Origin: Polyangiaceae bacterium
Lineage (GTDB): Bacteria > Myxococcota_A > Polyangia > Polyangiales > Polyangiaceae
Assembly: GCA_025353725.1 (NCBI GenBank)
Contig: JANXOF010000061.1
Span: forward strand, 62,001 to 126,000
Direction: 5' to 3'
DNA: 64,000 nucleotides
The notes beneath the pieces were generated by a model. It did no database searches and was not told the origin of the DNA. It worked only from the letters and a program-made list of their open reading frames with translations. Positions 3,700 to 17,134 of the stretch are shown here, piece by piece. How positions within the stretch are numbered: the stretch's first letter is position 1; every line of letters begins with the position of its first letter. The position numbers and the translations under genes were made by a program.

Positions 3700-4404
3700 A
3701 TGCGACATGCCAGAGTGAGTCGGCTCCTGGCGGTAGCGCTCGGTGTGGTGTGCGCGAGCGTGCTACTCGCGTCGGTCCCGTCGGTCCTGTCGATCGCGCA
3801 CGCGCAATGCGTCGATGAAGAGTTGAAGCAGGACTTGGTCGGAGGTCGTCACTACCGCGGCGTTCAAGACCGGCTTTTTACCAAGGCGTTTCGCCATGAG
3901 TTATCGGGCATGGGCGGCTATTACGCGGGGGACCTGTTCTCCTCGAGCTGGCTCGCGGGAGGGGCGTACACGTTCCATTTTAGCGAAGATCTTGGCCTTG
4001 AAGCGAGCGTGCAATGGACCCGGTTTCGCACGGTCGTGACCGACACGTACGAGCGAAGGTATCCGCAAGTGCAGGTCGAGGAGCGAACCAACCGACCCGG
4101 GCGCCTCTACTTTGGACACCTCATTTGGAGTTTCGCGTATGGCAAACTTCGTTGGATGGGCGGCGGCATTACGCGCTTCGATTTGAACGCCGCACTCGGT
4201 GCAGGCGTGACTGACGACTCCACGTCGCAGGGGCTAACCGCGAGCGTGGGTCTTGGTACGAAGTGGTACCTTGGGAAGTGGTTCGCACTCCGGCTGGACG
4301 TGCGCGACCACATTCTTCGCGAAACGCTCATCGGCGAAGACCACCTCGTCAACGACGTCCTCGTGACGGGTGGGGTCAGCGTGTTCATTCCCTTCGGCGG
4401 CTAG
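3700..4404 (+). CDS. Outer-membrane beta-barrel protein, GltA/GltB-like
   Basis: 234 residues. A Sec signal peptide ends near 'SIAHAQC'. The mature part alternates polar and aromatic residues in short strands ('GAYTFHFSEDLGLEASVQWTR', 'GTKWYLGKWFALRLDVRDH', 'VTGGVSVFIPFGG'), typical of the myxobacterial outer-membrane beta-barrel family that includes GltA/GltB and NfsA/NfsB. It heads a plus-strand run of envelope genes extending to 14.2 kb. The ATG at 3700 lacks a Shine-Dalgarno sequence, but a TATGCT hexamer ends 5 bp before it. The subfamily call rests on overall pattern and on the TPR/AgmX neighbours; a search against Glt and Nfs proteins is needed to confirm it. Confidence 0.72.
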   Translation: MRHARVSRLLAVALGVVCASVLLASVPSVLSIAHAQCVDEELKQDLVGGRHYRGVQDRLFTKAFRHELSGMGGYYAGDLFSSSWLAGGAYTFHFSEDLGLEASVQWTRFRTVVTDTYERRYPQVQVEERTNRPGRLYFGHLIWSFAYGKLRWMGGGITRFDLNAALGAGVTDDSTSQGLTASVGLGTKWYLGKWFALRLDVRDHILRETLIGEDHLVNDVLVTGGVSVFIPFGG

Positions 4405-4658
4405 CAGCCGACAGCGCGCCCCTCTTTAGAAAAGGAGGACTCGCGCGAGGGCGAGCGCCGCGGGCGTAGTCGGGACATCTTTTATTCGCTTCGACACCGT
4501 GATGCGGCCGTAGATACCAGCGACGGCTACGCAGCTTGGAAAAAGCTACATGCACGCCGAAGAAGCTACCTCAGCTTCCTCTTTCGCGTCTCGAAAAGCT
4601 TCGGTGGAAGGGAGTCCGCAAAGCCCTCCGTTTGCCTTATGATCAAGCCCCCGTGCGA

Positions 4659-5432
4659 ATGCGAACACGCTTCTTCGTTGGCGTCCTTCTGACGTTTGCA
4701 ACGACCCTTACATCGCTCGCTACGTTGGCGGTGGCGGACTCACGTAAGTCGACCGCGAAGCCGCCGCGTCCTCCGACGGGCGTGAAAGCTGATGCCCAAT
4801 CACCCTTCGACGAGGCGGCTGTCGTGGTCGACGCCTCGACCTCTGTGGGCTCGCCCGCCGAGTCGCCGTCTGCGCCGCTCGCGCCTTTCGCGCTCGATGG
4901 GGGCGTTCGCGATTCAAAGCTTACGCCGTCGCCGGAGGAATTTTCAGCGACTCGTGCCGATGCGGGAGCTCCTGTCGACTACGACCGCCTTCTAGCCGAC
5001 GTTGCGGCGTTGCGGGCTCGCGTCGCGGCGGTGAGCGATACTTTCTACCAATCACGTGTAGTTGTCACACTTCAATCCGAAGGTTCGCACGCGACGATAA
5101 CGAGGCTCACTCTGTCGCTCGACGACGGCGTCGTCTTCGCTGCGCCCGTGACGTTCGCGATGTCTGACCGCACGATCGTGTACGACCACGCGGTGGCGCC
5201 CGGCCGTCATACGGTGACCGTTGATGTCGATCGCAAGGACTACCGGGACGATTCGTTCACCACGGCACAGCGGAACCGCTTCACCATCGATGTTCCGCGT
5301 GATCATCGCGTCGAGGCGCAGGTTCGCTTGCTCGACGACTCGACCATGGGCAAGGAGTTTCGCGCCGATAAAACGGGCGAGTATGACCTTCGCTTTCGCG
5401 TGAACGTGGCCGCAAAAAAGGTCTCCAAGTAG
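4659..5432 (+). CDS. Exported hypothetical protein of the envelope cluster
   Basis: 257 residues from the ATG at 4659, which gives a clean signal peptide ('MRTRFFVGVLLTFATT'); a GTG two codons earlier is an alternative. After a Pro/Ala-rich linker, a short helical segment ('YDRLLADVAALRARVAAVSD', about residues 108-127) is followed by a beta-rich domain of about 125 residues ('SRVVVTLQSEG', 'APGRHTVTVDVDRKDYRDDSF', 'YDLRFRVNVAAKK'). Myxobacterial homologues are often mislabelled dihydrolipoamide acetyltransferase; no lipoyl or catalytic domain is present. The next gene starts 2 bp after its stop, so it is in the same operon. A periplasmic subunit role is inferred from position only. Confidence 0.7.
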   Translation: MRTRFFVGVLLTFATTLTSLATLAVADSRKSTAKPPRPPTGVKADAQSPFDEAAVVVDASTSVGSPAESPSAPLAPFALDGGVRDSKLTPSPEEFSATRADAGAPVDYDRLLADVAALRARVAAVSDTFYQSRVVVTLQSEGSHATITRLTLSLDDGVVFAAPVTFAMSDRTIVYDHAVAPGRHTVTVDVDRKDYRDDSFTTAQRNRFTIDVPRDHRVEAQVRLLDDSTMGKEFRADKTGEYDLRFRVNVAAKKVSK

Positions 5433-5434
5433 CT

Positions 5435-7474
5435 ATGCGCGGTTGCGGTCCTCGCGGTTGTTTTAGGACGTCGGCCCTCGGTGTCGTGCTCTTGCTGGGT
5501 GCGGCTCCGGCTTTTGGGCAATCTACCCCTTCGCGAAGGTCGACCGAGGCGGACGCGGCTTCGCTTGCCCAGTCGACGGGTGGCTTCACGACTCTAGACC
5601 TGACGCGAGGCTCCGGTATGCGTGCTTACCACGCCGCGATCGCGCGGCGCCGGCTCGGATCGGCCGATGCCATGCGGCTCGAGGCTGTCCAAGTGCGCGT
5701 TACCGAAGCCGAAGTCCTTGTCTCGTCGGGACGCTATGTCGAGGCGATCGGTAAACTCACCGAGGTGGTAGAGCACCCGAAATTCGAGCTGGTCGCCGAA
5801 ACGGAAGAGGGGAGGGCGGCTCTCTACCTCCTTGGACATGCGCTCGCCGCGGCCGGGATCCACGAATCGGCGCGCGCCTACCTCCGCGCTTCGATTGAAG
5901 GAAAAACCGTGTGGGAAAAGGGCGGTTCCTACGCCCGTCGTTCCGCGCGAAAGCTCGTTGAGATTGCGCTCGAGACTCACCTTTACCGGCAAGGGCTGAC
6001 AGATCTCGCCGCTTCGACGGGGGCTGTACCCGCAGAGATTCGCGGTGAGATGGCCTATCTCACTGGGAAGGCGAAGGAGGCGGAAGGCGACCGAGAGGGG
6101 GCGCTCGAAGCCTACGCGCGCGTCCCACAAGTTTCGAGATTTTGGTCGCAAGCGAACTACTTGGCGGGAATCGTTCAGGTGGAGCGCGGCCGGCTCAAGG
6201 AGGGCGAAAACCTATTTTGCAAAGTAGCCGACCCGAAGCGCCAAGATCGCAGCACGCCGGTCCTCGCGGATGAACGCTTCTTTGCGGTGCGCGATCTCGC
6301 AAGGCTTGCGCTCGGCCGGGTAGCGCACGAGCAGGCTCGTTTCGATGACGCTCGTTACTATTACTACCTCGTTCCGCGCGACTCAGACCGCCTCGCAGAG
6401 GCGCTCTATGAAGCCGCAACGACACGGTATGAAAAAAAGGATTACGAAGGAGCGCGAGAGTTGCTCGACGACCTTGTTGCGTTGAAAACGCACCATCGGT
6501 ACGAAGACGAAGCGTTTATCCTTGATGCTTACATCGATCTCGCGCGCTGCCGGTTTCCCGAAGCCGACAGAAAACTCGCTAGGTTTTTGAGAGGATATGA
6601 ACCTGTACGAGACGCTACGCGTCGGTTTTTGGCGAGCGACAGCGGGCTTCGGGCGCTTGTAGAGTCCGCCCGGTCAGGAGCTCAGGTGGGTGATGCGTTT
6701 AGCGCATCGGCGTCACCTGAGACCTTTCGAGCGGTAGCGGAACGCGTTCGCGTGGACCCGCTTTTCGGCGAAGCTTCGCGTCGTGGTGCGATTGTCGAAC
6801 GCGAGCAGACGGGACTCAAACTCGCGGGACTTACGATTCGCGACATGGCCCAAAGCTTGGCGACGCCCTTGGGAGTGCGCCCGCATGTGGATTCGAAAGC
6901 GGCGCTTTCCTCGCCTCGGCGCGACGCGGAGAATGCCCTAGACGAAGCGCGCAAACAGCTAAGCTCGATCGAGCAAGCGAACGCAGGGACGGACAAGCTT
7001 GCTTCGATTCGCAAGGAGCTTCGCGATCTTGAGCTGCGCCTCTCGAGCGAGGCGCGCCCCAGTGGCTTGCCACTCACGGATGCGCCCGCGACGACGCAGC
7101 TTAGCCCCGGCCTCGACCTAACCGATTTGCTCGCGCGTGATGAGGAGCGCGCGAAGAGTCTCGGCCGAGAACTCGACGGGCTGCGCACCGACCTTTTAAA
7201 GTCGGAGACGGCTCTTGCGAAGGACGCCTTGCGCCGGCTCGACCTTCGCCTCTCGCGCCTCTTGCGCCGAGCTCGCCTAGGACGCATCGAGTCTGTACTC
7301 GGCAAAAAGAGGGCGCTAGAGACCGAAATCGAGGCGTTCAACGCGGGCTACCTCCCGAAAGACGCGCTCGATTCACTCGATGCCGCGCGGACGTTGCGCG
7401 ACGGTGAAGAGTACTGGCCGTTCGAAGGAGACGATTGGCCTGACGAGTTTCTCGGAACCGAGGGTCTCAAGTGA
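5435..7474 (+). CDS. Periplasmic TPR protein, GltC-like
   Basis: 679 residues with an N-terminal signal peptide ending at 'APAFGQS'. Residues about 75-400 are helical hairpins of the tetratricopeptide type ('ALYLLGHALAAAGIHESARAYLRAS', 'AREDAR..RYYYYLVPRDSDRLAEALYEAA' pattern), a scaffold for protein-protein contacts. The C-terminal 200 residues are strongly charged with long helices ('RDAENALDEARKQLSSIEQA', 'LDLRLSRLLRRARLGRIESV') and look like coiled coil. It sits 2 bp after the previous gene and overlaps the next by 4 bp. Order and size fit the periplasmic GltC/NfsC-type subunit of the Glt/Nfs complexes; that assignment is inference. Confidence 0.75.
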   Translation: MRGCGPRGCFRTSALGVVLLLGAAPAFGQSTPSRRSTEADAASLAQSTGGFTTLDLTRGSGMRAYHAAIARRRLGSADAMRLEAVQVRVTEAEVLVSSGRYVEAIGKLTEVVEHPKFELVAETEEGRAALYLLGHALAAAGIHESARAYLRASIEGKTVWEKGGSYARRSARKLVEIALETHLYRQGLTDLAASTGAVPAEIRGEMAYLTGKAKEAEGDREGALEAYARVPQVSRFWSQANYLAGIVQVERGRLKEGENLFCKVADPKRQDRSTPVLADERFFAVRDLARLALGRVAHEQARFDDARYYYYLVPRDSDRLAEALYEAATTRYEKKDYEGARELLDDLVALKTHHRYEDEAFILDAYIDLARCRFPEADRKLARFLRGYEPVRDATRRFLASDSGLRALVESARSGAQVGDAFSASASPETFRAVAERVRVDPLFGEASRRGAIVEREQTGLKLAGLTIRDMAQSLATPLGVRPHVDSKAALSSPRRDAENALDEARKQLSSIEQANAGTDKLASIRKELRDLELRLSSEARPSGLPLTDAPATTQLSPGLDLTDLLARDEERAKSLGRELDGLRTDLLKSETALAKDALRRLDLRLSRLLRRARLGRIESVLGKKRALETEIEAFNAGYLPKDALDSLDAARTLRDGEEYWPFEGDDWPDEFLGTEGLK

Positions 7475-10400
7475 CGCCTTGCCGGAGGCGAGTGCGTTGC
7501 CGCGCGCTGGCTTTCGCATTTTCGTGTGTCGCCGCGAGTACCCATCGTCAAGCAGCCGCGGAGACGCCCACCACCGTGCGTGCGACGGCGGAAACCGCGA
7601 TTGTGGCGAGTCCGCGCGCTCGCCCCGCATCCACGATTGAACAGCCCGCGAGTCGTGGTGGCCTTAGCGGCCCCGGGAGCCGGCCGGCCTCTACTGGGCC
7701 CAAGATTCCGACGGGACTTCGCTTGCAGCTCGAGAAGCACATGGCGGCCCGCATCGAACGGGATGTGACACAGATAAAGGTGCTCCGCAGCGAGGCTATC
7801 GCCTTACTGACGTCCTTTGTCGCCGAGACGCCGCGGGAGGCGCGCGAGATGCCCGAGGCGCTGCTCCGGCTCGGTGAGCTTAAGTGGGAACTCGAACGGG
7901 AGCTGTTTGTTTCGCGATTCAAAACGTGGGAGGACAAGCCCTCCGACCTGCGCGGGCCGACGCCGGACCCGAATTTTCAGCCCTCGCGCGAGCTTTTCGC
8001 ACGAGTGATCAAAGACTACCCGTGGTTCAGTGAGTATGATCTGGCACTCTACGTAGATGGATTTCTCGCCTACGAACAGGGAAAACAGGACGAAGCGCTT
8101 GAACGCTTCAATCGAATTCTGGACGATTTTCCGCGTTCGCGGTTTGTCGTTGATGCACACATGGCTCGTGCCGAGTCGCTATTTAATGGCAAGTACGACT
8201 ACGCGGCGGCACTTGTTGAATATGAAGAGGTACTAAAGTTTAAAAATAACGAACTTTATGGCCTCGCTTTGTTCAAAAGCGCGTGGTGCTTGTGGCGACT
8301 CGGCCGAAGTGAAGCTGCGGCAAAGCGATTCGTGGGCGTCTTCGAGGTGGCAAAGGGCGTTTCGCTCGACGGTCGCACGAAGGCGAACGCCGTAAAGCGT
8401 AAGGAGCTCGACGAACTCGAGAACGAGGCGCTCACTTATCTTGTCGAGGTTTTTACCGAGGACGAGAAAAATACGGCTCAAGACGTTTACGGCTTTCTTA
8501 CCAAGATTGGCGGTGACCGCTTCGCCGGTAAAGTCGTTCGTGCGCTCGCCATCCAGTTTTACGACCAAGCTCACTACGATCGAGGCATCGAGGCTTATGA
8601 GTTGCTGCTCAAACTTGAACCTGCGAGCCCAGAGGCGTCCGCTTGGGCACTTCGTATCGCGACGGGCGCGAATGCCAAAGAGGACTGGGTAGCTCTACGC
8701 GTAGCCTACGAGCGAACCATTAAGAGCTTTACGTCGAATGGGGCATGGGCAAAGACCCAGGGCGACATTAAAGTCGTCGCGCGAGCCACGGCGGACGTCG
8801 AGAGGCAACTGAAAGAACATGCGCTTCAGCTCCACGCGAAAGCGCAAAAAGACAAGTCGAGTCGTGCCGAGTTCGAGGGCGCCGCGGGCCTGTATGACGT
8901 TTACTTGTCAAAGTTCGGAGCGGAACAGAATTCGTTTAAAATCCACTACTACCTCGCTGAAATAGACTTTCACCACCTCGACAAGGGGAGCGACGCTGCG
9001 ACTCATTACATGGCCGCCGCGCGTGCGATGCCCCAAAGCGAGGCTGACCACGAGCCTCTCAAAACGCTGCGTCATGACGCGCTCTACAACGCGATTGCGT
9101 CTCTTGAAAAGGTGCGCGCGTCTGAGTTCGAGGCTCGCAAAAAAGTACGCGTGCCTGAGGGCTCGACGGGAGCTTCGCAGGAGACCGAGGCCGATAAAAA
9201 GTTTGCAGAAGCTCTCGAACTCTACGCACAACTCTACCCAACAGACCCCGTACTTGCCGAATTCTTCTTTCGTCAGGGGCGGCAGTACTACGATTCCAGT
9301 GTCTTCGCCTCCGCGGTAAAAATATGGGGATCGCTGCTCGAAAAATTTCCGCGCAGTCCGTATGCGCTTGCGGCGGGCGAGCTCATTCTCGATTCGTTCA
9401 ATCGCGCGAAGGACTATGAAACGATCGAGACCTGGGCACGCCGACTCAAAGCCGCTCCCGCGTTCGCCAACGATGCAAACCAGAAAAAACTCGATACGCT
9501 TACCGTGCAGGCCGTGTTCAAGCAGGGGGAGCAAAAGGCTACCGCTGGCGACCATCGCGAGGCTGCCAAGGCGTATCTTCGCGCTGCGAGGGAGTTTCCT
9601 GGTGACCCGCGAGCTGCGCAAGCGTGCGTGAATGCCGAGACGGAGGCGCAAAAATCCGGCGACACGGAGACCCTTCGAGAAGCCGCGAAGCTCGTCACGG
9701 GGAAGGCGTATGCGTCGCTACCCGAGTCGCCGAGCGGAGCGTGGATCGCCGCAACGACGTTTCAGTCGATGGGGCTCTTTGCCGACTCGGCCGAGTTTCA
9801 CGAGGCTATCGCGAGCCTTGCCGATCGCGAGCACCCTCACTTCTCAGGGTATGAGCACGCGAGGGATGCCGCGTACAATGCGGTCGTCTTGCGCGTCGCC
9901 ACGGGCGAGCACGAGCGAGCCATCGCGAACGGCAAACGATTTCTGGCTCAATACGCTTCGAGCAGTGAAGCCGATGAGGTCGTGTTTCAGATGGGAAAGG
10001 CCCACCAGAACGCCGGCTTTGGGAAAGAAGCGGTAGAACTCTACCGACGCTATCTCGCGCATTCCAAGAATCAGGATCACCGTGTGCAAGGCTGGGTCCT
10101 GCTTGCCACGACGTTGTCGAAAACAGGCGAAGACGTCCGCGCGGATGAGGCGCTGAAAGCCGCTGTCGAGATTGGCAAGCATCGAAAGGCAGAGCTAGGT
10201 CCGGACGGAAAGTTTGCGGCGGCTCACGCGCGCTACCTCGAAGGTGAGCGCGTGCTCGTGCGTTTCGATCAAATACAGATTGCGGGCGACGTAAAGCAAC
10301 TTGCGATGCGGCTGAAAAAGAAAGCCGAGCTACTCAAGCAAGCGTCAGCTGTATTTTTGGACGTCGTTTCGCTGGGCGTCGCCGAGTGGACGACTGCCGC

Positions 10401-10890
10401 GCTCTATCAAATAGGCCGCACGTACGAGGCCTTCGCCAAATCGCTGAAAGAGGCTCCCGCGCCGTCGGGTCTCGAGGGATCAGACAAAGAGGCTTACCAA
10501 ACACAAATCGATGAGTTTGTGGTGCCTATCGAAGAGCGCAGCCTCGACGCGTACGAGAATGGTTGGAAGAAAGCTGTTGCGTTGAATATCTATAATCAAT
10601 GGACCGCGAAGATGCGCGAATCGCTGGGTCGTTTGAACGCCGAGCTTTACCCCCCGTTCAAAGAGACCGGTTTTGAAATTCGGTTACAAGGACCTTCGGC
10701 GTTGCCGCCGCTCATCGACTCCCCACGACGAGCAGGAGACAAAGCTATCTTCGCCGCGACTGTTCCGACCTCGAACTCAAGCAGCGGCACCGGTAAAGAG
10801 GATACGGTCAGCCCGGGCACGAAAGCCGAAGACGCCGTAAAAGATAGCCCAAATCCTAAGCGCTTGCCCAAGAAGAAGGGGATCAAGTGA
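7471..10890 (+). CDS. Large TPR protein, GltD-like
   Basis: 1139 residues, the largest gene in the window. The GTG start at 7471 overlaps the previous stop. A basic N-terminus and hydrophobic stretch ('ALAFAFSCVAAS') suggest export. Many TPR-type hairpins follow ('YDLALYVDGFLAYEQGKQDE', 'PVLAEFFFRQGRQYYDSSVF', 'ADEVVFQMGKAHQNAGFGKE', 'AEWTTAALYQIGRTYEAFAK'), spanning roughly residues 110-1040; the C-terminal 60 residues are low-complexity and lysine-rich. Size and setting resemble GltD/AgnA of Myxococcus, a huge TPR protein of the gliding machinery. It overlaps the next TPR lipoprotein gene by 4 bp, so stoichiometric expression is likely. Confidence 0.78.
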   Translation: MTPCRRRVRCRALAFAFSCVAASTHRQAAAETPTTVRATAETAIVASPRARPASTIEQPASRGGLSGPGSRPASTGPKIPTGLRLQLEKHMAARIERDVTQIKVLRSEAIALLTSFVAETPREAREMPEALLRLGELKWELERELFVSRFKTWEDKPSDLRGPTPDPNFQPSRELFARVIKDYPWFSEYDLALYVDGFLAYEQGKQDEALERFNRILDDFPRSRFVVDAHMARAESLFNGKYDYAAALVEYEEVLKFKNNELYGLALFKSAWCLWRLGRSEAAAKRFVGVFEVAKGVSLDGRTKANAVKRKELDELENEALTYLVEVFTEDEKNTAQDVYGFLTKIGGDRFAGKVVRALAIQFYDQAHYDRGIEAYELLLKLEPASPEASAWALRIATGANAKEDWVALRVAYERTIKSFTSNGAWAKTQGDIKVVARATADVERQLKEHALQLHAKAQKDKSSRAEFEGAAGLYDVYLSKFGAEQNSFKIHYYLAEIDFHHLDKGSDAATHYMAAARAMPQSEADHEPLKTLRHDALYNAIASLEKVRASEFEARKKVRVPEGSTGASQETEADKKFAEALELYAQLYPTDPVLAEFFFRQGRQYYDSSVFASAVKIWGSLLEKFPRSPYALAAGELILDSFNRAKDYETIETWARRLKAAPAFANDANQKKLDTLTVQAVFKQGEQKATAGDHREAAKAYLRAAREFPGDPRAAQACVNAETEAQKSGDTETLREAAKLVTGKAYASLPESPSGAWIAATTFQSMGLFADSAEFHEAIASLADREHPHFSGYEHARDAAYNAVVLRVATGEHERAIANGKRFLAQYASSSEADEVVFQMGKAHQNAGFGKEAVELYRRYLAHSKNQDHRVQGWVLLATTLSKTGEDVRADEALKAAVEIGKHRKAELGPDGKFAAAHARYLEGERVLVRFDQIQIAGDVKQLAMRLKKKAELLKQASAVFLDVVSLGVAEWTTAALYQIGRTYEAFAKSLKEAPAPSGLEGSDKEAYQTQIDEFVVPIEERSLDAYENGWKKAVALNIYNQWTAKMRESLGRLNAELYPPFKETGFEIRLQGPSALPPLIDSPRRAGDKAIFAATVPTSNSSSGTGKEDTVSPGTKAEDAVKDSPNPKRLPKKKGIK

Positions 10891-12038
10891 ACGTCCACGG
10901 CTGGATTCTGGTCGTGGCGTGTGCATCGCTAGGCGGATGCGGCGGTGGTCACGCCGCGCCGATCGCGAACGGTCCTGACAGAGTTTTGCCGGCCGCGAAC
11001 CCGCTCGCCGTTCAGCGGATGCTCGAGGGCGTCTCGCTGGCCAAAGACCCTCGCTCGCAAACGCGCGCCATGGATCGTTTGCGGGAGGCTTTGGCGGTGG
11101 ACCCGAACCTCTGGGAGGCGCGTTTCGACCTTGGCATCTTGCAGGCGAATCAGGGTGACCTTGCGAATGCCGAAGCACAACTTCGCGCCGCGTTCAAGAT
11201 CGCGCCGTCCCGTGAAGAGGTCTCGGTCGCGCTCGCCGAGGTTCAACGGCGGCGTGGGTTGAACAAGGACGCCGCCTTGGGTCTCGAAGACTTCGTGAAG
11301 GTGCATCCGCACGCTCTTGAGGCGCGCACGTTGCTCGTGTCTGCGCTGCGCGACTCCGGGCAGTCCGAGCGCGCGATTCAGCAAGCGCGTGAGGTGCTCG
11401 CGCGGAAACCCGGCGACTCTGCCGCGCTCGCTGAGCTCGCCCTATGCCACCTAGGTAAAGGCGAACGTGACACGGCACAGTTGCTTGTGAAACAAGCTCT
11501 GGAGGCGAATGCAAAGAGTGCGCTGGCGCACCGTGTCGAGGGCCTCATACTCCTCAATGGTGGTGACGATGCTTCCGCCTTTCGAGCTTTTTCGAAGGCG
11601 GCGCTGGAAGATCCGCGCGACATTACCTCGCGTCTCAACATGGGCGCGGTACTCCTGCGCGCGGGCGCGTACAGCAAAGCCGTCGAGCAATATAGAAGCG
11701 CTCTGATCGCCGCTCCGGATGAATCATTCGCTCGCATAGGGCTCGCGGCGGCATTGCGAGGTGAGGCCGAGGGAAAAAACGGAAAACTTATCGACGAAGC
11801 GAGGCTCCTTCTCGAAAAGGTACTTGAAAGCGACCCGCATAACGTTTCGGGCAACTTCAATCTCGGGTTGCTCTACGCCGACTCGCTTAGGAAGCCGGGT
11901 GAGGCACGGGCGTACTTCGAGCGCTTCTTGGAGGACGCCCCTAAAGATCATCCGTCGCGCGCTGAAGCTGCGCAGCAGCTTGCAAGCGCGAAGGTCACGC
12001 CAGACGTAGGCGACAAAGCCGCCGGTACGAAAAAATGA
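10887..12038 (+). CDS. TPR lipoprotein, GltE-like
   Basis: 383 residues from a GTG start overlapping the preceding stop. The N-terminus is a lipoprotein signal ('LVVACASLGGCGGG', lipidated Cys near residue 18). At least seven TPR units follow between about residues 60 and 350, with the expected W/L-G-Y/F-A-P spacing ('LWEARFDLGILQANQGDLAN', 'SFARIGLAAALRGEAEGKNG', 'VSGNFNLGLLYADSLRKPGE'). Such lipoproteins act as outer-membrane docking parts of large envelope machines; GltE and NfsE are the closest functional analogues I can name. The next gene starts within its stop codon (ATGA). Confidence 0.8.
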   Translation: MNVHGWILVVACASLGGCGGGHAAPIANGPDRVLPAANPLAVQRMLEGVSLAKDPRSQTRAMDRLREALAVDPNLWEARFDLGILQANQGDLANAEAQLRAAFKIAPSREEVSVALAEVQRRRGLNKDAALGLEDFVKVHPHALEARTLLVSALRDSGQSERAIQQAREVLARKPGDSAALAELALCHLGKGERDTAQLLVKQALEANAKSALAHRVEGLILLNGGDDASAFRAFSKAALEDPRDITSRLNMGAVLLRAGAYSKAVEQYRSALIAAPDESFARIGLAAALRGEAEGKNGKLIDEARLLLEKVLESDPHNVSGNFNLGLLYADSLRKPGEARAYFERFLEDAPKDHPSRAEAAQQLASAKVTPDVGDKAAGTKK

Positions 12039-12493
12039 GTCGTTTGACGTCTGTTGGAATTTTCGTCGTGGGGACGTGTTTTACGGCGTATTCCTTGCTC
12101 GCAAGCGCCCAAACGAAGAAGCCTGCCGTTCCGTCACTCGCGACTTCGAAAAAACAAACTTCAAGGCCTTCCCCAGCGAGCGCGGCAGGTTCCGCGACGA
12201 AGTCGCCTGCCGCGAGCCTTACGCCGGATGCCGCCGAGCCGGTTTCACCACGTACTTCGGGTTCGACCGGAGGCGACGGCGGGCCGCCACGCGCTCCCGC
12301 CGCCGTAGCAACCCTCGCCGATGGTGGTGCGCGCGTGTTCCGCTTCGGTGAAGTTGAAGTGGAGGGGCGTCTGAAGAGCCCGCAGATCGTTTACTTTCTT
12401 CGGAGGGTGCGCGCTGAATTCGCGGCCGATTCTCTAGGCCATCGGAGCTTCGTGCAGGAACTCGAAGAGACCCGAAACGAACCGGGCTTTTGA
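12035..12493 (+). CDS. Small exported protein of the Glt/Nfs-like cluster
   Basis: 152 residues with a signal peptide ('VGIFVVGTCFTAYSLLASAQ'), a low-complexity Ser/Ala/Pro linker of about 70 residues, and a compact C-terminal motif of about 45 residues reading 'FRFGEVEVEGRLKSPQIVYF' followed by a basic 'LRRVRAEFA' stretch and 'HRSFVQELEETRNEPGF'. The start overlaps the upstream stop (ATGA). The architecture, an export signal, a flexible tether and a short conserved-looking tail, suggests a linker that reaches a partner across the periplasm. I do not recognise an enzymatic domain. The operon ends here: 304 bp of non-coding DNA follow. Confidence 0.7.
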   Translation: MSRLTSVGIFVVGTCFTAYSLLASAQTKKPAVPSLATSKKQTSRPSPASAAGSATKSPAASLTPDAAEPVSPRTSGSTGGDGGPPRAPAAVATLADGGARVFRFGEVEVEGRLKSPQIVYFLRRVRAEFAADSLGHRSFVQELEETRNEPGF

Positions 12494-12797
12494 CCTGCCC
12501 GCGTCGAGCGGAAAGCGCTCATGGGATCTGCATTCGTAGGTGAACTGACGGTGTGCAATCCCCGGTTCATGTCCCGTAGTCCCGAACCGCACGTGTTCCT
12601 CGAGCCTCAAAATGTGCGGCTCGAATTGAGGTGCAGGTGTAACTGCCCAGCCTAACCCACGCGATCCGAGACGCGTCGGAGGTCCTAAGGTTCTCTGCGG
12701 CGCGTGTCGGCGCGTGTCGCCGGGCGTCGCCGGGCTGACCACCTAACCTGTCGCGGTGGCGTCGGAACGACCCGCGCCTCTGGTAGCCTAGCCTTCG
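12494..12797. other. Intergenic region before the AgmX-type gene
   Basis: 304 bp with no convincing gene in any frame. The stretch 12700-12735 has a small GTCG/CGGCG-rich direct repetition (GGCGCGTGTCGGCGCGTGTC). A TAGCCT hexamer at 12784-12789 lies 8 bp before the next ATG, which has no Shine-Dalgarno sequence, so this could be a promoter for a nearly leaderless transcript. Confidence 0.5.
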
Positions 12798-14207
12798 ATG
12801 TCTCAGGTTCAGCCGCTCGCGCCGTCGGCACTGCGCGTTGCCGCCGTATGGGGCACCACCGTCGTCGCGACGAAAACGCTTGGTCGCGGGGAGTCGTTCG
12901 TCCTTGGCGACTCTAGCCTTAGCCAGCTCCCGATTCCGGACGGTATCGAAATGTCGACGACTCCGCTCAAGGGGTGTCAAGGCGGGTGGGAGCTCGACGC
13001 GAGAGGCTGCGTCGGTGGTGTCCTTACGCTTCGGGGACGAGTCGAAGAGCCCGTGGCCGTGGCGCGCTCGGTGGCGGCCGTTCCGGTCATGCCCGGTGAT
13101 TACGGACTCATTCAGTACGGGCAGCTCTCCATCTTTTTTCAGTACACCGAGCTACCCGTGCCGATGCGCGCGTTTCGTGCGCCGGATCTTCTAAGCCTGC
13201 TCGCGATTTTCTGCAGTGCCATGCTCCACATCGGCTTGCTAGGTCTCGTACGCACGTTGATGACGCCCGATCAGCTCGCTAAACCGCTCGAGCTCACGAA
13301 CCCCGATGAATACGCCGCGCGCTTCGGGCTCCAGCGTGCCGTTATCGAGCCGCCACCCGAGCCCGCGGTCGCCGGTCAAGAGACTGGCGGTGCCAGCGGC
13401 GTGAAGGACCCAGGCGCTCAAGACAAGAAGCCTCAGGGGGGAGGCAAAAAAATCAAGGGCGATGAGGGTAAGTTTGGTGTGAATGGGCCGGCTGACCGCA
13501 CGCAGCTGCCTGGAGACGCTAAGCCGACTACGCACTATGGCGGGCTCAGCGAAGTTCTGGAGGGCGATACGGGAAAAGAAATACAAAACACACTCAAGTC
13601 AATTACTACCGTTTCCGCGGCGCTTGCTGGCCTTAATGCGAATACGCTGGTTCTTGGCGGCGGCCCCGGCACCGGTTTGAAGGGGGGGGGCGCAGGGGGC
13701 GGCGGCACGGGGGCAGGTCTTGCCTTCGGCTCTGGGACGCTCGACACGGGCTTCGGTGCCGGGAACGGCGGCGGCATGGGCGGCGGGACCGGAGGCCCTG
13801 GAGCTCGCGGGACGGGAGGAAACGGTCGCGGCGGTGCGGGTGGAGGGTCCGGTGCCGGTGCAGGCCCCGGTGAGGCCCGGGTTGCGGTCGGAGCCGGCGT
13901 AGGCGCCTCGAAGGGCGGGCTTTCGCAAGATCAGGTCAGGCGGGTCGTCATGGCTCACCTCGGTGCCGTGCGTGCTTGCTATGAGAGTGAGGCGCAGCGC
14001 AATCCGTCGCTAAAAGGTGGCCTGACCGTACAGTGGACCATTGATCCGAACGGCGGCGTGTCGAGCGCGTCGGTCGCGGGGAGCACCCTCGGAAATCCAC
14101 GGGTCGAGGGGTGCGTTGTGCGTCAGGTGAAGGGCTGGCACTTTCCGACCAGCGAGACGTCTACCATCGTCGGCGGGTTTCCTTTCAAGTTCGGCGTCGG
14201 AGGCTAA
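12798..14207 (+). CDS. AgmX/PglI-type TonB-like protein (GltG/GltJ-like)
   Basis: 469 residues. The N-terminal 125 residues form a beta-rich cytoplasmic domain reminiscent of a degenerate FHA fold ('LGRGESFVLGDSSL', 'GDYGLIQYGQLSIFFQY'). One transmembrane helix follows at about 131-153, then a periplasmic linker dominated by Gly and Ala (about 285-370), and the C-terminal AgmX/PglI domain at about 374-469: 'QVRRVVMAHLGAVRACYESE', 'GGLTVQWTIDPNGGVSSASV', a second Cys and 'VKGWHFP'. Proteins of this type couple an inner-membrane proton motor to outer-membrane partners, as TonB does. No ExbB/ExbD or AglRQS motor gene lies in this window, so the motor must be elsewhere. The glycine linker contains a nine-G homopolymer. 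Confidence 0.83.
   Translation: MSQVQPLAPSALRVAAVWGTTVVATKTLGRGESFVLGDSSLSQLPIPDGIEMSTTPLKGCQGGWELDARGCVGGVLTLRGRVEEPVAVARSVAAVPVMPGDYGLIQYGQLSIFFQYTELPVPMRAFRAPDLLSLLAIFCSAMLHIGLLGLVRTLMTPDQLAKPLELTNPDEYAARFGLQRAVIEPPPEPAVAGQETGGASGVKDPGAQDKKPQGGGKKIKGDEGKFGVNGPADRTQLPGDAKPTTHYGGLSEVLEGDTGKEIQNTLKSITTVSAALAGLNANTLVLGGGPGTGLKGGGAGGGGTGAGLAFGSGTLDTGFGAGNGGGMGGGTGGPGARGTGGNGRGGAGGGSGAGAGPGEARVAVGAGVGASKGGLSQDQVRRVVMAHLGAVRACYESEAQRNPSLKGGLTVQWTIDPNGGVSSASVAGSTLGNPRVEGCVVRQVKGWHFPTSETSTIVGGFPFKFGVGG
13682..13690 (+). repeat. Nine-G homopolymer in coding sequence
   Basis: A run of nine G inside the glycine linker of the AgmX-type gene. Slippage by one base would remove the C-terminal domain, so the tract could switch the gene or could be a sequencing weak point. 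The frame is open as given. Confidence 0.85.
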
Positions 14208-14291
14208 GCTTGGCCCGCGGCCAAGAGGTCGGCACGGGTTTGCAGTCCGAAAAGTTGTCACCCCTTGTGCGGTCCTGGTACCCGAGAACGC

Positions 14292-15176
14292 ATGATCCGT
14301 CGCGTCGCCGCTTCGATGTTCGACCGCGGCGCGCCCTCGCCCCGTCTGGAAACGAGCGCGGTGAATACCCGTACGAGCAAGGTCGCCGCAGCTGAAGACC
14401 CGAGTTTCGGTCGCGCCTTCCGCCCTCTTTTAAGAGCTGGCGAACGGTTCGCGCGCGACGCCGCCAATCGCCCGATTCTGATGTTTGAGGACGTCTACAA
14501 GTCCTATCGACCTGGCGCTCCTGTCTTGCGCGGCATGAACCTCATCATCGAGCGTGGCGAATTTGTCTTCATCACCGGTCCAAGTGGCTCCGGGAAAAGC
14601 ACGCTTCTTCGCATTCTGTACGCGGCGGAGAAGCCGGATGAAGGGCGTATTCTTTTCCTAGGCCGCGACATCGCCCGCCTTCGGGAGGAGTCGATCCCGT
14701 TTCTGCGCCGCAACATTGGCGTTGTGTTTCAAGACTTCAAGCTTGTCAATCCGTGGACGGTCTTCGAGAACGTAGCGATTACGCTCGAGGTACTAGGGCT
14801 ACCGAGCCGCCTCATACGGTCGCGCGTCGGCGAGGCTCTCGAGCGTGTGGGTCTTCAGGGCCGCGGAGGAGATCCTGCGGGCGTCCTCTCGGGAGGAGAG
14901 CAGCAGCGTGTCGCCGTCGCCCGCGCGATTGTGGGTGAGCCTGCGCTCATTCTTGCCGACGAGCCAACCGGTAACCTCGACCCGCAGCTTGCTCTCGACG
15001 TCCTCGGGCTTTTCGAGGAGATTCACGAGAACGGTACAACTGTTCTTTTCGCCACCCACGATCGCTCACTTCTCGATCTGCGGTCGCGGCGACTCATCGT
15101 TCTGGACGAGGGTAAAGCACTCGACGTGCCCAATGGCGTCGGCGAGCGCGAATTCGACAATACATTGCCCGTTTAG
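14292..15176 (+). CDS. ftsE: Cell-division ABC ATPase FtsE with N-terminal extension
   Basis: 294 residues from the ATG at 14292. The ATPase domain has Walker A 'GPSGSGKST', Q-loop 'VVFQDFKLV', signature '[14 protein letters not shown]', Walker B '[12 protein letters not shown]' and the switch His in 'FATHD'. The '[16 protein letters not shown]' sequence is characteristic of FtsE. FtsE pairs with FtsX, encoded 15 bp downstream behind a GGAGAGG ribosome-binding site. About 63 residues precede the canonical FtsE start; an internal ATG at 14481 would give a normal-length 231-residue protein, so the extension may be real or a start-site artefact. FtsEX transmits cytosolic ATP hydrolysis across the membrane to periplasmic cell-wall hydrolase activators such as EnvC. 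Confidence 0.9.
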
Positions 15177-15191
15177 GGAGAGGACCAAACG

Positions 15192-16082
15192 ATGTTCGAT
15201 GGGTCGATCGGAACGACGCGCAGGGCGCAGCGCGGAATGCTCCGTGAATGGCGGCTTCACGCGCTCAGCGTATTTTCCTTGGCTGTTGCGTTTGTATGCC
15301 TTGGCGCGGCTCTTCTCGTACTCACGAACCTACGTGCCATCGAGGAGCGATGGGCTCATGCCGGCCGCGCTTCCGTGTACTTGAAAGACAACGCGCAGGC
15401 CCAAGACGTCGAGTCTCTCAAACAGGCTTTGTCGAGCGTCGCAGGGGTAACCGGCGTCCGGTATGTCTCTGCGGCGCAAGCGCGCGCCGAATTCGGCCAG
15501 ACAGAGTCGGGGCCGAAGGGCGAGCTCGCAGGGCTTCCGGTCGATGCCTTCCCCGCGTCTATCGAGGTCGAAGTTCGACCTGACTTGAGCGATGCCGAGC
15601 TCACGGACATCAAAGCGAAGCTCAAGTCGTTGCCCGCCGTCGACGACGTCGAGACCTACCAAGCTTGGACCGAACGACTCTCGCGCCTTGTCAAGGGTGG
15701 GGTTACGGCGGCCGCGATGCTCTCACTCGTGGTCTTTGCGTCCGTGCTTGCCGTGGTCGGGTCGACCATCCGTCTCGCGCTTCAGCGGCGCCGCACGGAG
15801 GTTGAAGTATTAAAGCTCGTAGGTGCCAGTGACAGGTTTATCAAAGGGCCTTTTCTGGTTGAGGGAAGCACGCAAGGCGCGCTCGGCGCGACGGGCGCGA
15901 TTGCGATTCTCGCGGCCCTCTTTTTTGTGGTCCGCGGCCGTCTCGACGCCGAACTCGCGAGCCTCATTGGGGTGGAGCCGTCCTTCTTACCTTGGTACGT
16001 GATGCTCGGTATGGTCGGGATGGGCGTTCTTTTGGGCACGTTGGCCGCGCTCTTGGGTCTCCGGAGGCTCGTGACGGTATGA
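15192..16082 (+). CDS. ftsX: Cell-division permease-like protein FtsX
   Basis: 296 residues with four predicted transmembrane helices at about 24-45, 170-192, 232-250 and 264-290. The large extracytoplasmic loop between the first two contains the FtsX extracellular domain ('RASVYLKDNAQAQDVESLKQ', 'VDDVETYQAW'). The segment 'LALQRRRTEVEVLKLVGAS' after helix 2 is the cytoplasmic coupling motif typical of FtsX. It acts with FtsE to convert ATP hydrolysis into a conformational signal for a periplasmic partner. The stop codon overlaps the start of the EnvC-like gene (ATGA), which strongly suggests that this is the partner. Confidence 0.92.
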   Translation: MFDGSIGTTRRAQRGMLREWRLHALSVFSLAVAFVCLGAALLVLTNLRAIEERWAHAGRASVYLKDNAQAQDVESLKQALSSVAGVTGVRYVSAAQARAEFGQTESGPKGELAGLPVDAFPASIEVEVRPDLSDAELTDIKAKLKSLPAVDDVETYQAWTERLSRLVKGGVTAAAMLSLVVFASVLAVVGSTIRLALQRRRTEVEVLKLVGASDRFIKGPFLVEGSTQGALGATGAIAILAALFFVVRGRLDAELASLIGVEPSFLPWYVMLGMVGMGVLLGTLAALLGLRRLVTV

Positions 16083-17134
16083 GTCAAAGCATCGCTCGCT
16101 CGGCGTGCGCGCTGCGGGGACCGCTCGTTGCGGTGGCCTTCGTTGTGGCGGGGGCGTTCGCGGGTGACGGGCGTGCGAAGCCGCTTGAACCCCACGTTCG
16201 CGAGCCATCGGGTCCTCTTGGGGTCGTGCCACTCCCGCAGCCGCTGTCACTTCCGGATTCGTCCTCGACGCTGGCGCTGGCCGCGTTGGACCGTCACATC
16301 GCCGACCTTGATGCAGAGGAGCTCGAGCTGAAGCGCGAGCTCGCGGACGTTGGCCCCACGGTCGCGGCATCCCACGCGCGGTCGCTGCACCGAGGGCGTG
16401 CATTTTACAGACTTACGCGTGCGGGCATGTTGCCTGTCGGTGGCGGCTTCGAAGCCCTCGTTTCGCACGCCATGCGCGTCGAACGCGGGCGTCGCTCTCT
16501 TATCGGCGACCTCGCTCTCGAAAAAGCGCTTCGGACGCGCGGAGGAGACCTCTCGCGCGCGCTCGAACGGGTGGCACGTGATCGCGTCGCGCTGAGTAGC
16601 CAGCGAAGCGCGATGGACGCCGCGCGTCTCGCAGTAGAAGACGAGACTCGTAGGCAATCAGCTTTCGACCGAGCCTTTTCGACGTCGAGTGGCCCGAGTG
16701 AATACGTCGCTGTCTACGGAGGCAATGGCGCGGCGGTCGACCACGGAGCGAGCGGCTTTTCAACCTCGCGTGGACGCCTCCTTTTTCCACTTGCAGGCCG
16801 GTCGGAGGTGAGGCCCGCAAGGCGCGAGGGCACGGAGGGGCCTGGTCTAGAGATTCGGTCCACACTCGGGGCGCCCGTTCGATCTGTCTTTGGCGCGCGC
16901 GTCGCATTTGCCGACCGCTATGGCGCGTATGGCCGGCTCGTGATCCTCGACCACGGAGATCAGTACTACTCAGTGAGCGGTAATTTGGCTGCGATTGAGG
17001 TTAAAGTCGGTGACGAGATCTCTGCCGGCGAACGACTCGGAACCGTGGGCGACGACGGCCGAGGAGCGATGCTTTACTTCGAAGTCCGCCACGGAACGGA
17101 GACCCTCGCGCCGGGACCGTGGCTTGGCCTCTGA
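16079..17134 (+). CDS. EnvC-like periplasmic protein with degenerate LytM domain
   Basis: 351 residues from the ATG overlapping the ftsX stop. A signal peptide is followed by a long helical region (about 65-205, heptad-like: 'IADLDAEELELKRELADVG', 'ARDRVALSSQRSAMDAARL') and a C-terminal LytM/M23 fold ('GAPVRSVFGARVAFADRYGA', 'YGRLVILDHGDQYYSVSGNL', 'VKVGDEISAGERLGTVGDDG', 'MLYFEVRHG'). The zinc ligands of active M23 peptidases are missing: the first H-x(n)-D site reads GPGLEI and the H-x-H site reads FEVR. EnvC shows the same losses and acts by activating amidases, not by cutting peptidoglycan. The ftsE-ftsX operon position supports that role. Confidence 0.85.
   Translation: MSQSIARSACALRGPLVAVAFVVAGAFAGDGRAKPLEPHVREPSGPLGVVPLPQPLSLPDSSSTLALAALDRHIADLDAEELELKRELADVGPTVAASHARSLHRGRAFYRLTRAGMLPVGGGFEALVSHAMRVERGRRSLIGDLALEKALRTRGGDLSRALERVARDRVALSSQRSAMDAARLAVEDETRRQSAFDRAFSTSSGPSEYVAVYGGNGAAVDHGASGFSTSRGRLLFPLAGRSEVRPARREGTEGPGLEIRSTLGAPVRSVFGARVAFADRYGAYGRLVILDHGDQYYSVSGNLAAIEVKVGDEISAGERLGTVGDDGRGAMLYFEVRHGTETLAPGPWLGL

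Follow-up and report, generated by a model that had tools for sequence, protein, structure and literature searches.

In the stretch of DNA analysed here (the window, 64 kb in length), which comes from a soil myxobacterium of the Polyangiaceae, seven genes resemble components of the Glt gliding and Nfs spore-coat machines of Myxococcus xanthus, and no motor gene accompanies them. Do they encode a third, distinct version of this trans-envelope machine, as the preliminary description proposed, and if so, what would drive it and what would it move?

Neither an additional version nor a motorless cluster would be unexpected in kind, since both have precedents dating from 2011 to 2013. Besides glt and its closest described paralogue nfs, M. 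xanthus carries two paralogous clusters of unknown function, G4 (MXAN_1922) and G5 (MXAN_1327), and the core of the complex has been defined as gltC-D-E-G together with aglRQS (Luciano 2011, PMC3169522). The AglRQS motor, encoded at another locus, binds both GltG and NfsG and is thus common to the two machines, which belong to a type adopting many conformations in Deltaproteobacteria (Wartel 2013, PMC3858216). As glt and nfs themselves lie away from the aglRQS genes that they share, the lack of a motor within a cluster is uninformative by itself.

Organization of the cluster

The seven open reading frames were found in the order and at the positions first described, all on the forward strand:

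3700..4404, + strand: gene A, GltA-type outer-membrane beta-barrel, 234 aa (TIGR04565 OMP_myx_plus, 101.8 bits, cut-off 60)
4656..5432, + strand: gene B, exported protein with signal peptide, Pro-rich linker, helix and small beta-sandwich
5435..7474, + strand: gene C, exported TPR protein, GltC-type, 679 aa (Pfam TPR; NCBIfam GltC; hhalign)
7471..10890, + strand: gene D, exported TPR protein, GltD-type, 1139 aa (Pfam TPR; hhalign; tree)
10887..12038, + strand: gene E, TPR lipoprotein, GltE-type, 383 aa (lipobox LGGC; Pfam TPR; hhalign)
12035..12493, + strand: gene F, small exported protein with a GltF-type C-terminal tail, 152 aa (tail alignment)
12798..14207, + strand: gene G, inner-membrane protein, GltG-type, 469 aa (myxo_SS_tail, 99 bits; hhalign)
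14265..17134, + strand: neighbouring genes for FtsE, FtsX and an M23 peptidase (EnvC-like) (Pfam), probably outside the system

The assignments made from the letters alone held for the barrel A, for the TPR repeats of C, D and E, for the lipoprotein nature of E and for G, whose C-terminus is an AgmX/PglI domain (cut-off 40 bits) and whose transmembrane helix spans residues 131–155. The count of touching or overlapping junctions had to be lowered from five to four: B and C are separated by 2 nt, and C-D, D-E and E-F overlap by 4 nt each. The F-G spacing is 304 nt and that between A and B is 131–251 nt, depending on the start of B. For the latter gene, the ATG at 4656 (about 258 aa) is a likelier start than position 4536 (298 aa), chosen previously, because the signal peptide begins at that ATG. 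The 64-kb window contains no ExbB-type gene and no further GltC-type gene, in agreement with the original reading.

Homology to Glt proteins

Profiles of the window's clade were compared by hhalign with those of canonical (clade I) clusters, and A, C, D, E and G each gave cognate matches far above the non-cognate controls. The values were 100% for C against GltC (E = 1e-44), D against GltD (3e-110), E against GltE (5e-60) and G against GltG (1e-63); the barrel A matched its canonical counterpart at 98% (1e-13) and the clade II barrel at 99.8% (1e-27). Against the canonical copies of the host itself, D matched at 99.7% and G at 99.9%. For F, the alignment covers a short tail only, at 95% to clade III F and 73% to clade I GltF.

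TPR repeats yield generic matches, and a run of unrelated TPR proteins could merely resemble Glt. When C, D and E of the cluster were paired with non-cognate TPR proteins, however, the five comparisons gave E-values of only 7e-5 to 3e-9, tens of orders of magnitude short of the cognate ones, and the gene order also matches. Such a chance resemblance can hardly be credited and is refuted by this comparison. The joint occurrence of GltC, D, E and G homologues with a GltA-type barrel solidly places the cluster, on sequence evidence, among true members of the Glt/Nfs superfamily.

The NCBIfam equivalog models were missed by C (GltC, 84.6 bits against a cut-off of 450), E (GltE, 76.5 against 225) and G (GltG, 74.8 against 650). 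Such strict cut-offs leave the matter undecided, since the canonical GltC of the same host (305 against 450) also falls below. The AgmX/PglI domain (NF033768) is by itself a poor marker of Glt systems, as at least 13 host proteins exceed its cut-off.

Proteins B and G

Protein B, which is retained upstream of C in most relatives, is an extra component by comparison with Glt. Its AlphaFold2 model (pLDDT 73 overall, about 85–96 over most of the domain) predicts a disordered linker, a helix and a small beta-sandwich of eight strands behind the signal peptide. A structure search gave weak matches to Fn3/transthyretin-like folds, none below E = 0.001. Identity with GltB was ruled out, given that hhalign detected no similarity to any Glt barrel and that the model is a sandwich and not a barrel.

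The model of G comprises a cytosolic FHA-fold domain, the transmembrane helix, a long disordered Gly-rich linker and a TonB-like C-terminal domain; Foldseek matched the FHA and the TonB/TolA C-terminal domains weakly (best E = 1.9e-3). The FHA domain of GltG sits in the N-terminal part of that protein (PMC3169522). Since the alignment of G to canonical GltG begins only at GltG residue 206, the window protein lacks the N-terminal third that holds it.

Phylogenetic position

A tree of D proteins (70 sequences, 1044 columns) separates four groups: I, canonical; II, Myxococcia-type, a class that we inferred from GltC scores among other indications; III; and IV, which holds the window cluster. Support was 1.0 for clade IV, for clade IV with its sister set and for III+IV. 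Clade IV, the sister of clade III, is distinct from clade I, to which the Glt/Nfs-type clusters belong. It was found only in Polyangiales, together with a sister set 31–33% identical to it. Three transducer clusters coexist in the host genome: one of group I at contig C9, one of group III at C90 and that of group IV in the window. The canonical D copy of the host (L011) falls in clade I, and the host's canonical glt-type locus includes a giant GltI-like TPR protein. The clade III cluster (G000:C90:95284-106029; L255 4284-15029) adjoins a Poly_export/SLBB gene. A 252-aa protein with no Pfam match is encoded between F and G of that cluster, perhaps a degenerate ExbB.

The idea of a third, distinct version stands as regards a separate D clade but not as regards novelty, since G4 and G5 were already listed (PMC3169522) as what amounts to a third and a fourth version. 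Like these, the window cluster is a paralogous Glt-type cluster outside the gliding locus, and clade IV may be equivalent to one or the other. Clade III may correspond to G4, which lies near WzaB/WzpB (MXAN_1915/1916), as judged from its own place next to polysaccharide export genes.

With M. xanthus Glt (G1+G2, GltA-K) the cluster shares homologues of GltA, C, D, E and G, along with a candidate F, in a matching arrangement, and a motor encoded elsewhere; it differs in its separate D, its extra protein B, the shortened G and the lack of GltB, H, I, J and K, no homologues of which were found in the cluster. Nfs (G3, NfsA-H) is likewise one contiguous cluster with a corresponding A to G order, an unlinked motor and no I, J or K, whereas, with Nfs taken from its published description, the window cluster lies outside the Glt/Nfs-type clade by its D protein and has no detected H. 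The gltC-D-E-G plus aglRQS core known from Gammaproteobacteria, Geobacter and Fibrobacter has C, D, E and G in common with the cluster, but carries its motor in the operon; the cluster has none and adds A, B and F.

The novelty seems to lie in a conserved clade, confined to Polyangiales, whose clusters include the additional protein B and a shorter G. Clade IV might be a branch of the Agl-Glt/Nfs machines that has not been described before and has specialised on its own; it would be widespread in this order and would have an added periplasmic beta-sandwich protein, a shortened G, a motor acting in trans and a surface cargo other than slime or spore coat. We advance this tentatively, rating it somewhat short of an even chance. 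The data suggest a larger family of envelope transducers driven by motors, of which the machines for gliding and for the spore coat are two members. Clade IV provides a defined gene set and a phylogenetic range for work on the function of clusters that are neither gliding nor Nfs.

Conservation in Polyangiales

A gene-order map built with tblastn showed that A-B-C-D-E-F-G is kept in related genomes across Polyangiales at protein identities down to 28–46%, an association far beyond chance at such divergence. The same order occurs in records labelled Labilithrix, Polyangiaceae, Sandaracinaceae and others. A clade IV D protein is present in 30 of the 58 relatives, host counted; several Polyangiaceae genomes, some of them large, have no clade IV match. 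Among the 73 stretches of clade IV or its sister set IVb that we examined (some contigs counted twice, flanks of at most 10 kb), some loci are broken at the C-D or the E-F junction, and in one Polyangiaceae subgroup F and G were not detected beside A-E (L054, L055, L057, L104-L109, L131 and L134). None of the 73 has an ExbB or ExbD gene beside it. Linked polysaccharide export genes were also absent from these stretches, in contrast to clade III. A plasmid search gave no match.

Candidate motors

The host genome has ExbB-type genes at six places, none of them on the window's contig (C50). One place (G000:C35:61415-67106; L016 5415-11106) holds two divergent AglRQS-like motor sets, the one consisting of ExbB-ExbD-ExbD and the other of the same three genes plus a 328-aa protein. 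Both adjoin mreC-mreD-pbp2-rodA, an arrangement repeated for the two sets in a second genome (G021, L260); such siting of Agl-type motors next to MreB-linked genes may matter for their function.

The clade III loci L211, L217, L221 and L227 have an ExbB-ExbD-ExbD motor inserted between E and G; in an ExbB tree of small size and moderate support, the ExbB of this motor clusters with that of host set 1. Three clade III clusters (L211, L214 and L208) come from another class of the phylum. The motor of L211 is complete, whereas the E-G interval of L208 and L214 contains no motor; L214 adjoins OPX-like and barrel genes, recalling the WzaB/WzpB neighbourhood of MXAN_1922 in M. xanthus.

Co-occurrence says little about which motor serves the cluster, because both are nearly universal: the ExbD of set 1 was found in 55 and that of set 2 in 57 of 58 genomes. 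Assignment on this basis was set aside as weak. Among the 30 genomes with a clade IV D, only the 80%-complete G012 is without set 1. Two reduced genomes of the window's own genus (G008 and G010) have neither clade IV D nor set 1 and keep set 2 with one strong, canonical-type GltC. This joint absence is no more than suggestive of a link between clade IV and set 1, and may reflect a single loss. Set 1 is also present in genomes devoid of clade IV and may serve clade III or I instead.

Proposed function

Our favoured reading is that the cluster encodes a device that transmits force across the envelope, is powered in trans by an Agl-type motor and moves a surface cargo; we consider this reading rather likely. 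Homology, gene order, the separate clade, the lack of a linked motor and the presence of unlinked ones are the observations from which we infer its assembly, motor partner, movement and cargo. The seven proteins would assemble into an envelope-spanning bridge of the Glt type. G would reside in the inner membrane, its FHA-fold domain in the cytosol and its TonB-like domain reaching into the periplasm on the Gly-rich linker; C, D and the lipoprotein E would span the periplasm with B and F, and the barrel A would anchor the assembly in the outer membrane. One of the two ExbB-ExbD-ExbD motors at C35 would supply the drive, set 1 being the likelier partner in view of its resemblance to the motors that lie within clade III clusters. 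Like Glt and Nfs, the machine would move a cargo of the outer membrane or cell surface in a directed fashion, and this cargo would probably be a polysaccharide or an adhesin.

The uniform lack of linked motors in clade IV and IVb, the loci in which G was not detected beside A-E and the resemblance of the cytosolic domain of G to a degenerate FHA would also be consistent with a static scaffold, permanently deprived of its motor, that serves only to link the outer membrane with the periplasm and the inner membrane. This is unlikely, however, since G retains the transmembrane helix and TonB-like domain expected for motor coupling and nearly all carriers possess unlinked motors. A role as a second gliding apparatus or gliding accessory is suggested by the homology to Glt, gliding being what the family is best known for (PMC3169522). 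We find this rather improbable: the host already has a canonical glt-type locus, no clade IV match was obtained even in some large Polyangiaceae genomes, and M. xanthus mutants in G4 and G5 show no motility defect (PMC3169522).

The genes downstream raise the further prospect of a partnership with FtsEX and the M23 peptidase in cell division or peptidoglycan remodelling. FtsE starts 57 nt past G, the three genes are co-directional with the cluster, and the Agl-like motors of two Polyangiaceae genomes lie next to morphogenesis genes, as noted above. Only three other stretches have FtsEX close to the cluster, and the spacing differs among them, so that a functional partnership was rejected for want of conserved proximity and its probability is very small.

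With three transducer clusters and only two Agl-type motors in this one genome, motor sharing and the specificity of motors for transducers are directly testable.
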